Assembly (NCBI GenBank): GCA_030057915.1
Contig: JASGUC010000031.1
Span: forward strand, 1-64,000
Length of the DNA stretch: 64,000 nt
From: Pseudomonadota bacterium
GTDB taxonomy: Bacteria > Desulfobacterota > Syntrophia > Syntrophales > UBA8958
Direction: 5' to 3'
Notes under the pieces: model-generated
Told to the model about the DNA's origin: nothing
The model's input: the letters and a program-made list of their open reading frames with translations, nothing else
The model's database searches: none
Shown here: in pieces, positions 4,864-52,126 of the stretch
Layout of the letters: the number at the start of each line of letters is the position of its first letter
Numbering within the stretch: position 1 is the stretch's first letter
Made by a program: the position numbers and the translations under genes

Positions 4864-4995
4864 GAGACCTTTGAAAATCCACGCCTTCCTGTCGCCCCGG
4901 CAAGAATCTCGGCCCGGAACTCCTTGAAAACACCGAATTCCGGCCTACGCCGGTATGACGATCAGGGAGTCGGAGAGGGCGTTTTTCAAAGGCCT
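4864..4995. repeat. R1 element, 132 bp
   Basis: Begins GAGACCTTTGAAAATC and ends GTTTTTCAAAGGCCT. The interior contains the R1 core blocks (CGCCCCGGCAAGAAT, CCTTGAAAACAC, GAATTCCGGCC, GGTATGACGA) shared with the copies at 10940 and 26925. No clean target duplication was found. Confidence 0.75.
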
Positions 4996-8142: not shown

Positions 8143-10941
8143 ATGGACTACAAGGAAACCTTGAACCTCCCCAAAACCGATTTTCCCATGAAGGCCAATC
8201 TCGCCGCCCGAGAACCGGAAATGCTGGCCCGGTGGGAGGAGATGCGTATCTACCACCGGATCCGCGCCGTGTCCAAGGGCCGGGAAGTCTATATCCTCCA
8301 TGACGGGCCTCCGTACGCCAACGGCAACATCCACCTCGGCACCGCCCTCAACAAGATCATCAAGGACATGGTCATCAAGACCAAGAACATGTCGGGTCTG
8401 GACAGCATCTACGTCCCCGGCTGGGATTGCCACGGCCTCCCCATCGAACATCAGGTCGATAAGGAGCTGGGGGACAAAAAATACGAGATCTCCCAGGCGG
8501 ACAAAAGGCGGGCCTGCCGGGCCTACGCGGAGCGCTTCGTGGACATCCAGCGGGAGCAGTTCAAGCGCCTCGGGGTCTTCGGGGAATGGGAAAATCCCTA
8601 CCTCACCATGACTTACGATTACGAGGCCATCACCGTGGCGGAATTCGGCAAGCTCTTCCTGGGCGGCGATGTCTATAAGGGCAAGAAGCCCGTTTACTGG
8701 TGCGCCACCTGCAAGACCGCCCTGGCGGAGGCGGAGGTGGAATACGGCGACCACACGACGCCGTCCATTTACGTCAAATTCCCCGTGATCTCCGACATCG
8801 CCGCGATCCGACCCAAACTGGCGGGGGAAAAGGTGCATGTGGTCATCTGGACTACCACCCCCTGGACGATCCCCGCCAACCTGGCCATCGCCTTCCACGA
8901 GGAGTTCATCTATGTGGCCGTGAAGACGGAGGGAGAGGTCCTGATCCTCGCCAAGGACCTCCTCGATTACTGCCTCGATGCCTTCGGACGACAGGGCAAG
9001 CCTTACGAGATCCTCGACGAGTTCCCCGGTGCGGTCATGGAGGGCCTGAAGACCCGCCATCCCCTCATCGACCGGGAAAGCGTCCTGATCCTCGCCCCCT
9101 TCGTCACCCTTGATGCCGGCACGGGCTGCGTCCACATCGCCCCCGGCCACGGTCAGGAGGACTATGAAATCGGGATGAAATACGGCCTGGACAACTACGC
9201 CCCCGTTGACGAGGACGGACGCTTCACGAAGGACGTGGCGGATTTCGCCGGGATGTTCGTCTTCGACGCCAACGACCCCGTCAACGACAAGCTCCGGGAG
9301 GTCGGGGCGCTCCTGGGTCTCGTCGATATCGATCATTCCTATCCCCACTGCTGGCGCTGCAAGGAGCCCATCATCTTCCGCTCCACGGAGCAATGGTTCA
9401 TCTCCATGGAAAGGAACGGCCTCCGGAAGAAGGCCCTGGAGGCCATCGCCAAGGGGGAATGGATCCCTTCGTGGGGGAAGGATCGGATCTACGGGATGGT
9501 GGAAAACCGTCCCGACTGGTGCATCTCCCGTCAGCGCCTCTGGGGCGTCCCGATCGCCATGTTCTACTGCAATGACTGCCAGAGCGAGTTCCTTACCAAG
9601 GAGATCCTCGACCATGTCGTCGCCCTGGTCCGGGAGCATGGGGCGGATGTCTGGTTCGAGCGGGAGGCGAGGGAGCTTGTCCCCGCCGGCACGGTCTGCC
9701 CGGTATGCAAAAAAGGCCGGGAATTCCGCAAAGAAACGAATATCCTCGATGTCTGGTTCGACTCCGGCGTGAGCCACGCCGCCGTCCTGGAGACCCGTCC
9801 CGATCACCGCTCCCCCTCGGACATGTATCTCGAAGGGAGCGACCAGCACCGGGGCTGGTTCCATTCGTCCCTTCTGGAATGCGTGGGCACCCGGGGCCAC
9901 GCCCCTTACAAGACCGTCCTGACCCACGGCTTCGTTGTCGATGGCGAAGGCAAAAAGATGTCGAAATCCGTAGGCAACGTCGTCGAGCCGGACGAGATCA
10001 TCGGCGAATACGGCGCGGAGATTCTTCGCCTCTGGGTGGCGGCGGAGGATTACACCGACGACATCCGCATCTCCAGGGAGATCCTCACCCGCCTGGTGGA
10101 GGCCTACCGGCGGATCCGCAATACTAGCCGCTACATCCTGGGGAATCTCTTCGACTTCGATCCGGGGAAGGACCGCCTCCCCTACGCCGAGCTGGAAGAG
10201 ATGGACCGCTGGGCCCTCCACCGCCTCCAAGAGGTCATCCGCCGGGTCCGGGAGGCTTACGACAGGTACCAGTTTCACATGGTCTATCATACCCTCTACA
10301 ACTTCTGCGCTGTTGACCTGAGCGCCCTCTACCTGGACGTCCTCAAGGACCGTCTCTACACCTCGAAGGCGGCCTCCCGCCAGCGCCGCTCCGCCCAGAC
10401 GGCCATGGAGATCATCCTGGACGCCATGGCCCGGCTGCTGGCCCCGATCCTCACCTTTACCGCCGAGGAGGTCTGGCTCGCCAGGCCCGCTTACGACGGC
10501 AAGGAGGAAAGCGTCCACCTCACGGAATTCCCCGCGGTAAATCCGGACTTCGTGGATGAGGAACTGGGGGAGAGGTGGCGGACCCTCGTCGCGGTCAAGG
10601 GGGAGATAGCCAAGGCCATCGAGACGGCCCGGAAAAACAAGATCGTCGGCCATTCCCTCGATGCGGCGGTGGCCGTCGCCCCGCCGGAGAACCTGCGGGA
10701 GCTTATCGCCGGACACCGGGAGGATCTCCAGGCCCTCCAGATCGTATCGCAACTGGACATCGTCACCCGAGGCGACCTAGACGCCGACGCCTACGAAAGC
10801 AAGGAAATCGAAGGCCTGTGCGTGGGGGTCGTCAAGGCCCGGGGGAAGAAATGCGGGCGCTGCTGGATCTACAGCGAAGACCTGGGGAAGGATCCGGAGC
10901 ATCCGACCATCTGCGACCGCTGCCTGGCGAACCTGAGGTGA
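8143..10941 (+). CDS. ileS: Isoleucyl-tRNA synthetase
   Basis: 932 residues, the normal length of a bacterial type I IleRS. The HIGH-type signature is GPPYANGNIHLGT (about 55-67) and the KMSKS loop is KKMSKSVGN (about 603-611). The CP1 editing region carries WTTTPWTIPANL, and the C-terminal zinc ribbon is CGRCW...CDRC. It charges tRNA-Ile in the cytosol. AAGGAAGGAG precedes the ATG. It is followed by lspA after a 154-bp gap occupied by an R1 element; the ileS-lspA pairing is common in bacteria. The stop TGA is the first three bases of a TGAGACCC R1 border. Confidence 0.97.
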   Translation: MDYKETLNLPKTDFPMKANLAAREPEMLARWEEMRIYHRIRAVSKGREVYILHDGPPYANGNIHLGTALNKIIKDMVIKTKNMSGLDSIYVPGWDCHGLPIEHQVDKELGDKKYEISQADKRRACRAYAERFVDIQREQFKRLGVFGEWENPYLTMTYDYEAITVAEFGKLFLGGDVYKGKKPVYWCATCKTALAEAEVEYGDHTTPSIYVKFPVISDIAAIRPKLAGEKVHVVIWTTTPWTIPANLAIAFHEEFIYVAVKTEGEVLILAKDLLDYCLDAFGRQGKPYEILDEFPGAVMEGLKTRHPLIDRESVLILAPFVTLDAGTGCVHIAPGHGQEDYEIGMKYGLDNYAPVDEDGRFTKDVADFAGMFVFDANDPVNDKLREVGALLGLVDIDHSYPHCWRCKEPIIFRSTEQWFISMERNGLRKKALEAIAKGEWIPSWGKDRIYGMVENRPDWCISRQRLWGVPIAMFYCNDCQSEFLTKEILDHVVALVREHGADVWFEREARELVPAGTVCPVCKKGREFRKETNILDVWFDSGVSHAAVLETRPDHRSPSDMYLEGSDQHRGWFHSSLLECVGTRGHAPYKTVLTHGFVVDGEGKKMSKSVGNVVEPDEIIGEYGAEILRLWVAAEDYTDDIRISREILTRLVEAYRRIRNTSRYILGNLFDFDPGKDRLPYAELEEMDRWALHRLQEVIRRVREAYDRYQFHMVYHTLYNFCAVDLSALYLDVLKDRLYTSKAASRQRRSAQTAMEIILDAMARLLAPILTFTAEEVWLARPAYDGKEESVHLTEFPAVNPDFVDEELGERWRTLVAVKGEIAKAIETARKNKIVGHSLDAAVAVAPPENLRELIAGHREDLQALQIVSQLDIVTRGDLDADAYESKEIEGLCVGVVKARGKKCGRCWIYSEDLGKDPEHPTICDRCLANLR

Positions 10942-11068
10942 GACCCTTGAACACCCGCGCTCCTTTCGCCCCGGCAAGGACCGGGGGCCGGAAGGCCTTG
11001 AGAACGCCCTATTCCGACCTCCACCGGCATGACGAAAGGGGATCGGAAACGGCGTTTTTCAAAGGTCG
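10940..11068. repeat. R1 element between ileS and lspA
   Basis: About 129 bp, GAGACCCTTGAACACC at the left and GGCGTTTTTCAAAGGTC at the right, with the same internal blocks as the copy at 4864 in the same order. The left border overlaps the ileS stop codon. It lies between two genes that would otherwise form an operon. Confidence 0.75.
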
Positions 11069-11095
11069 CGAAGCAGGGGATCGGCCGGCTGAGCG

Positions 11096-26420: not shown

Positions 26421-26540
26421 GAGAGCTTTGAATAACCGCCATTTTGTAATTTCGACCGAAGGGAGAAATCTTTAACAAACTGCCATGATTAGGATTTCTC
26501 GTCGCTCGCCCTCCTCGAAATGACATTTTTCAAAGGTCTC
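26421..26540. mobile_element. R1 element with 6-bp target duplication (120 bp)
   Basis: GAGAGCTTTGAATAACCGCC at the left, TTTTTCAAAGGTCTC at the right, flanked by ATGACT at 26415-26420 and 26541-26546. The core contains TTTCGACCGAAGGGAGAAAT and its complement-like partner GATTTCTCGTCGCT. Together with the copy at 30542 this shows the family moves by insertion. Confidence 0.8.
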
Positions 26541-26742
26541 ATGACTTAAGGTATCATAAACGGGCGTCATTTTCCAGCAGGATTCCCCCGGCATCGGCCC
26601 CGGCGCCCGGTTCCTCTCCGCCCTGACCGCAGGGCCAATTGGTTCTTTCTGCCGCCGCTCGATTTCCTGGGGCTGCAAAAGACGGGAAACCCGCTATTTC
26701 GGCTTATTTCGAGGGGCGCGAACCTGTCCTGGCCCTGACTGT

Positions 26743-26846
26743 CACGGTAAATTTGTTCTATCTCTAAATGGCTGAAAACAGGACGTGCCTCAGTTTTAGT
26801 AGCTCATTCAAGATCAACTACTTACCTTGAGAACAAATTTACCCTG
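26743..26846. mobile_element. R2 MITE, copy 1 (104 bp)
   Basis: Inverted ends CACGGTAAATTTGTTCT and (complement of right end) CAGGGTAAATTTGTTCT, 16 of 17 matching. Flanked by 10-bp duplications CCCTGACTGT (26733-26742) and CCCTGACCGT (26847-26856). It differs from the copy at 51877 by six substitutions and no indel. No coding capacity. It lies between the divergent CoA transferase and transketolase genes. Confidence 0.88.
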
Positions 26847-26924
26847 CCCTGACCGTTTCCCCGGTTGACAGGCCGTCGAAAATGTGAAATCTTCACGGAC
26901 CGGCCCCAAGGCACATGCCTTATC

Positions 26925-27056
26925 GAGCCCTTTGAAAATCTACGATTTGCTTTCGCCCCGCTAAAATCCGGGGTCGGAGATACCTTGAAAACACAGTATT
27001 CCGGCTGCCACTGGGATGACGATGGGGACTCGGAAAACGGCGTTTTTCAAAGGTCT
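26925..27056. repeat. R1 element upstream of transketolase
   Basis: 132 bp, GAGCCCTTTGAAAATC to GGCGTTTTTCAAAGGTCT, full-length and in the same orientation as 4864. Flanks CTTATC and TTTATC may be a worn target duplication. It ends 30 bp before the tkt start, so transcripts starting upstream would carry it. Confidence 0.75.
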
Positions 27057-27086
27057 TTTATCATAAAATCAAGAAGGTATGAGACA

Positions 27087-51813: not shown

Positions 51814-51876
51814 AATCTTCCTCTCCCAAATGTTTTGGAACAGGCATAGCACATTCCCCTCCGCAAGGATAGAGGG

Positions 51877-51980
51877 CACAGTAAATTTGTTCTATCTCTA
51901 AGTGGCTGAAAACAGGACGTGCCTCGGTTTTAGTAGATCATTCAAGATCAACTACTTACATTGAGAAAAAATTTACCCTG
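51877..51980. mobile_element. R2 MITE, copy 2 (104 bp)
   Basis: Same 104 bp as 26743-26846 apart from six substitutions. Perfect 10-bp duplications GGATAGAGGG at 51867-51876 and 51981-51990. It lies in the promoter region between the divergent lsrF-like and rubredoxin genes. Confidence 0.9.
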
Positions 51981-52126
51981 GGATAGAGGGATATTGCCGG
52001 ATCGCCGCCGGGACGGGATTTGCCCTGGCATATGGCGCGGAATTCATATATGCTGCCCCGGAGGCGTCGGGGATGGAGGTTTCCACGGCAACCGCCGACG
52101 CCAAATGACTAAGGGGGCAGGGAACC

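Follow-up and report, generated by a model that had tools for sequence, protein, structure and literature searches.

The window analysed here (the whole 64,000-nucleotide stretch of DNA) belongs to a 2.85-Mb draft assembly of 64 contigs (G000), whose flavin reductase gene is closest to those of Syntrophus-like MAGs (89% for JAKQIZ010000075.1, approximately 80% for Syntrophus sp.). Two copies of a short element, R2, are present in minus orientation; as described in the first-pass annotation, they are of equal length (104 bp) and differ at six positions (94% identity). Copy 1 (26743–26846, with the right-type end, CACGG, at position 26743 and the left-type end, CAGGG, at position 26846) is located in the divergent intergenic region between a CoA-transferase III and a transketolase gene, copy 2 (51877–51980) in the divergent intergenic region between a DeoC-type aldolase and a flavin reductase-rubredoxin gene. 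The 17-bp inverted ends, CACGGTAAATTTGTTCT and CAGGGTAAATTTGTTCT, are identical at 16 of 17 positions. Copy 1 is bordered by the 10-bp target copies CCCTGACTGT (26733–26742) and CCCTGACCGT (26847–26856), which match at 9 of 10 positions, and copy 2 by GGATAGAGGG on both flanks (51867–51876 and 51981–51990; 10/10). With a length below 500 bp, terminal inverted repeats and no transposase gene, R2 conforms to the definition of a prokaryotic MITE; this earlier identification is strengthened by its multiple copies, its target duplications and an empty site. The latter was found for copy 2 in JAKQIZ010000075.1, where the orthologous site contains a single GGATAGTGGG. Since the flanks of the two window loci share no similarity and the copy 2 site is empty in this relative, segmental duplication is excluded as the source of the two copies.

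Directly to the left of copy 1 lies X (26630–26732, plus orientation; approximately 103 bp), an older, diverged sister MITE of the R2 superfamily that was inserted earlier at the same target: the target copy at 26733–26742 is common to both elements, and the outer target copy of X, GCCCTGACCG (26620–26629), agrees with GCCCTGACTG at 9 of 10 positions. On the transketolase side of copy 1, the plus strand reads TTCCCCGG-TTGACA-17-AATCTT, i.e. an 8-bp spacer (26857–26864) separates the target copy from a predicted −35 box (TTGACA, 26865–26870), which is followed after 17 bp by a predicted −10 box (AATCTT, 26888–26893). In four congeners the intergenic region is compact and MITE-free with the promoter retained; TTGAC and AAATGTGAAATCTT are conserved in all four, and at the corresponding position the congeners have TTGAC(T/A)-TGTTTGAAAAAATGTGA-AATCTT or close variants of it. 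Because of these near-identical −35 and −10 boxes, the predicted transketolase promoter beside copy 1 is regarded as ancestral. The first-pass annotation had placed both copies in divergent promoter regions: both are indeed in divergent intergenic DNA, copy 1 exactly 8 bp upstream of the conserved −35 box, whereas copy 2 has no sigma70 promoter at this offset and is an exception to the address described below.

Two further intergenic repeats occur near copy 1. One of approximately 120 bp (26421–26541) contains ATTTCGACCGAAGGGAGAAATCT and has more than 12 genomic copies at 93–97% identity; the other, of 132 bp (26925–27057, also 4864–4995 and 10938–11069), ends with GTTTTTCAAAGGTCT, has further genomic copies, is situated between the transketolase promoter and its gene at 26925–27057, and gave a weak, sub-threshold match to isrK (E 0.04).

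Genomic copies and related insertion sequences

A search of the genome with the 104-mer scored at least 41 copies of R2. The end pattern with up to two mismatches matched 94 times in forward and 93 times in reverse orientation (reversed control pattern: 1 and 1), and thus about 93 pairs of ends are present; most copies retain one CAGGG-type and one CACGG-type end. In 54 extracted copies, about half of those in the genome, the 10-bp duplication was exact in 25, had at most one mismatch in 46 and at most two in 49, whereas duplication lengths of 8, 9, 11 and 12 bp matched in just 0–4 of the 54, and left and right flanks paired across different copies agreed with at most two mismatches in 5 of 2862 pairs. 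Most of the copies extracted from the genome carry the 10-bp duplications rather than lacking them. The duplication pairs differ by 0.55 mismatches per 10 bp, the copies deviate by approximately 3% from their consensus, and flanks of different copies are unrelated except for other short repeats. Neither an internal consensus (every position at most 0.2 bits) nor a palindromic target was detected in the duplications. No Rfam family fits R2, and comparisons with plasmids by DNA similarity and with phages by protein similarity yielded no match. A 210-bp version (L180:619-828; G000 C56:1118-1327) is lengthened in its interior by approximately 106 bp and flanked by an exact 10-bp duplication; it is either a progenitor or a nested insertion.

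Full-length elements bounded by R2-type ends were found in three Syntrophales relatives: G235 (1918 bp, L169:1115-3032), G064 (1917 bp, L189:1468-3384) and G129 (2126 bp, L190:344-2469). The 17-bp right end is identical to that of R2 in the first two and has one mismatch in the third; the polarity at base 3 (CAGGG left, CACGG right) is the same in insertion sequences and R2. Domain searches on the G235 element assigned its products to the ISAs1 family (NF033564; ORF2, 128 bits at a cut-off of 70) with PF13808 (DDE_Tnp_1_assoc) in ORF1 and PF01609 (DDE_Tnp_1), and a DruA-like domain (PF14236, 8.9e-24) is located N-terminal to the ISAs1 domains. In all three elements the frame is interrupted at CACCCAAAAAAAGT, which reads A AAA AAG in the first frame. 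This conserved slippery heptamer separates the DDE_Tnp_1_assoc portion from most of the DDE domain and suggests that programmed −1 frameshifting is likely at this site. A relative from Thiodictyon crosses the A AAA AAG site in a single open frame.

MITEs with R2 ends are also present in relatives, at 101–103 bp in G009, G052/G064 and G129 and at 184 bp in G291, G384, G514 and G438; the interiors of the approximately 100-bp elements are still alignable. The 184-bp size class (L154, L155, L156, L163) has the same ends and occurs in other Desulfobacterota families. An internally deleted, decayed ISAs1 element of 1033 bp with R2-type ends (L153:1501-2533, G463) is an intermediate between insertion sequence and MITE. 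G052 and G064, which are placed in different genera, have one and the same MITE insertion in common, with identical flanks (L148, L149), possibly because of binning contamination.

In the 64-contig draft of G000 no ISAs1 transposase (NF033564) was matched, nor was one found with the ORF2 query in the 11 genomes of its family; R2 is hence orphaned in this assembly, and its partner transposase may be lost or unassembled. The two DDE_Tnp_1 (IS4-type) transposases of G000 itself were rejected as partners, as their ends do not match those of R2. ISAs1-family elements generate target duplications of 8–10 bp, a value with which the 10-bp duplications of R2 and of both Thiodictyon insertion sequence copies (see below) agree. 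From ends, domains and duplication length we infer that R2 would have been mobilised by an ISAs1/DruA transposase.

Position relative to predicted promoters

On alignment of the R2 sites in element orientation, TTGACA became apparent 8 bp beyond the duplication. Offsets are given as the distance outward from the target duplication to the start of the −35-like hexamer; 47 copies (about half of all genomic copies) were scored on both sides, i.e. 94 flanks. TTGACA with at least 5/6 matches occurred at offset 8 in 16 of the 94 flanks (split 11 to 5 between the two sides) versus 0.31 expected at the density of such sites in the window (binomial p 7e-23), and at any other offset at most three times (none at 7, three at 9, one at 11). 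With an E. coli-based sigma70 model, applied to a Syntrophales host and yielding promoter predictions, the mean score of the 47 copies at offset 8 was 4.69 compared to a background of −2.93 (sd across offsets 0.61); 16 copies scored at least 8 at this offset, and at most three at any other. When the side was chosen by the −35 box alone, a −10 box appeared at offset 31, corresponding to a 17-bp spacer (mean 0.61 versus −4.4), and when it was chosen by the −10 box alone, the −35 score peaked at offset 8. As each box predicts the other, the address sites are predicted to be promoters. A −10 box was present at 8 of 18 R2 sites versus 6% of the TTGACA-like sites in the window, and at 7 of 18 versus 8% of intergenic −35-like sites. 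Among the 22 best copies, either end of the MITE faces the promoter (14 to 8), and the −35 box is at offset 8 in 19, whereas the distance to the −10 box is variable. About half of the R2 copies, including window copy 2, are without a clear promoter at offset 8–9. Gene context derived from open reading frames for all copies was discarded as too crude, some clear promoter sites being labelled intragenic.

X follows the same address. At least 58 matches to a sequence model of X were obtained in the genome, and X carries 10-bp duplications of its own (e.g. CGTCAAGACG and GGGGCGTCTT, 10/10). Among the 30 best X copies, R2 is located at 9–11 bp in seven and within 4–13 bp in three more, in a ranking biased towards copies next to R2, from which the model had been derived, and with some X ends set by hand; approximately 0.03 pairs would be expected genome-wide by chance, as estimated from 58 X, 95 R2 and 14 allowed positions. 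The three target copies (outer, middle and inner) can still be recognised as one sequence (e.g. GATTGACGAT / GATTGGAGAT / GATTGAAGAT), and several loci, including window copy 1, show the order target-X-target-R2-target-8bp-TTGACA, with R2 between X and the promoter in each clear case. Twenty lone X copies have their promoter peak 18 bp (10+8) from the X end (1.33 versus −3.0, sd 0.82). Attraction of R2 by the end of X was set aside because R2 is on the promoter side at every locus with a clear promoter and lone X copies share the offset; a single address rule explains the X-R2 stacks.

Outside this genome, the G129 insertion sequence (whose matching duplications are lost) has TTGACA 18–19 bp beyond each of its ends, and the same spacing was found at the G514 MITE, at an end in G255 and on a viral contig (L147); the MITEs of G009, G384 and G129 have the hexamer at other short distances, others not at all. 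A DruA-ISAs1 element is also carried by two plasmids of the gammaproteobacterium Candidatus Thiodictyon syntrophicum, where its 10-bp duplications, GATACCCTGG and CCTCGCAGGC, are exact and TTGACC / TTGACA lies at offset 9; no good −10 box was recognised by eye at these sites. The promoter address thus seems to belong to this DruA-ISAs1 transposase group. It is unlikely to characterise the whole family, since ISAs1 elements overall are reported to be over-represented between convergent genes (PMC9208149).

Proposed mechanism and alternative readings

With a probability of roughly 0.8, R2 is the MITE of a DruA-fused ISAs1-family insertion sequence whose transposase targets an edge 8 bp upstream of the sigma70 −35 box. 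According to this model, R2 was built from the two ends of such an element; the ISAs1/DruA transposase would have recognised these ends and made staggered cuts 10 bp apart, the complex favouring targets with one edge 8 bp upstream of a −35 hexamer, i.e. at approximately −54 to −45, about 45–54 bp upstream of transcription starts. Copies would then settle beside promoters and leave the core promoter intact. The older wave X would have obeyed the same rule, and as each insertion would duplicate the target beside the promoter, where a later element can use it, later insertions would stack on the promoter side.

An IS4/IS231-like transposase had been put forward in the first-pass annotation as the mobilising enzyme. 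IS4-type elements do produce duplications of 10–12 bp and have ends starting with CA, and ISAs1 transposases share the DDE_Tnp_1 fold, but the mismatched ends of both DDE_Tnp_1 genes of G000 and the matching ends around NF033564 transposases in three relatives render this assignment highly improbable: movement by a transposase with 10-bp duplications stands, whereas insertion sequences with R2 ends, which do exist in relatives, are of the ISAs1 family and not of the IS4 type. Domestication of R2 as a regulatory module, retained because it modulates neighbouring promoters, is very unlikely. Its location next to core promoters and the ability of its palindromic ends to fold (z −3.7 and −4.0 in copy 1) would be in line with such a role, but the variation among copies and within duplication pairs looks neutral, either end faces the promoter, relatives at the copy 1 locus have the promoter without the element, and the Rfam search points away from it as well.

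Pure survivorship, i.e. insertion blind to promoters with selection tolerating copies just upstream of core promoters, gains some weight from the fact that observable copies are survivors only and that MITEs are typically intergenic (PMC10969869). It is nevertheless unlikely: the peak is one base wide, whereas selection ought to tolerate a broad range of positions upstream of −45, and the same offset recurs in X and in full-length insertion sequence copies. The address would accordingly reflect targeting rather than survival, as we infer from the width of this peak. Guidance by RNA polymerase, in which polymerase bound at the promoter, or the DNA that it bends, makes contact with the transposase or a partner and insertion follows at the upstream edge of the complex (−54 to −45), deserves consideration as a possibility of less than even odds. 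The enrichment of −10 boxes keeps it in play, as does some −10 signal at copies with a weak −35 box (−1.9 to −2.8 versus −4.6, sd 0.76); on the other hand, intergenic DNA is in any case rich in promoters, and the anchoring of the offset to the −35 instead of the −10 box, together with the Thiodictyon sites, favours direct reading of TTGAC(A) by the transposase, which would be slightly more likely. That promoter-bound polymerase, or the DruA-like domain recognising the promoter as a unit, guides integration to a fixed position upstream of the −35 box and so yields ordered tandem stacks of successive MITE waves is a rather doubtful extension; promoter-guided integration by the DruA-ISAs1 group would resemble the polymerase-guided integration of retroelements.

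If the preferred reading of transposase targeting is true, a choice of the promoter edge to the single base would explain how a 2.85-Mb genome bears approximately 90 MITE copies with little apparent damage, and the element would flag promoters across the genome and serve as a tool for promoter-addressed insertion. The data suggest a bacterial transposon that homes on promoters, and raise the questions whether its transposase reads a promoter element or follows RNA polymerase, and which role is played within a transposase by the DruA domain, familiar in other contexts from Druantia defence. In the literature searched, with most subscription journals outside it, no promoter-addressed bacterial insertion sequence or MITE was reported, an absence that does not prove novelty.

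Most bacterial insertion sequences exhibit weak target choice. Tn7, which integrates at attTn7, and Ty3, which integrates at Pol III starts, resemble R2 in that they insert a set distance away from some feature of the host and spare the gene. The full-length R2-ended elements share with the ISAs1 family (NF033564; DDE_Tnp_1_assoc and DDE_Tnp_1) the transposase domains, the CA(G/C)GG ends and the 10-bp duplication; they differ in their size (1.9–2.1 kb), the N-terminal DruA-like domain, the catalytic gene split at A AAA AAG in three relatives, and their location at promoters, in contrast to the preference of the whole family for sites between convergent genes (PMC9208149). The Chunjie MITE of Geobacter uraniireducens, compared by its description only (PMC10969869), is likewise an intergenic Desulfobacterota element of comparable abundance with inverted ends and direct repeats, but it is longer (178–235 bp), and this description includes no promoter address. 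Correia elements and other promoter-carrying MITEs are, like R2, located just upstream of genes; according to the same description (PMC10969869), however, these elements bring their own promoters, whereas R2 settles beside pre-existing ones.
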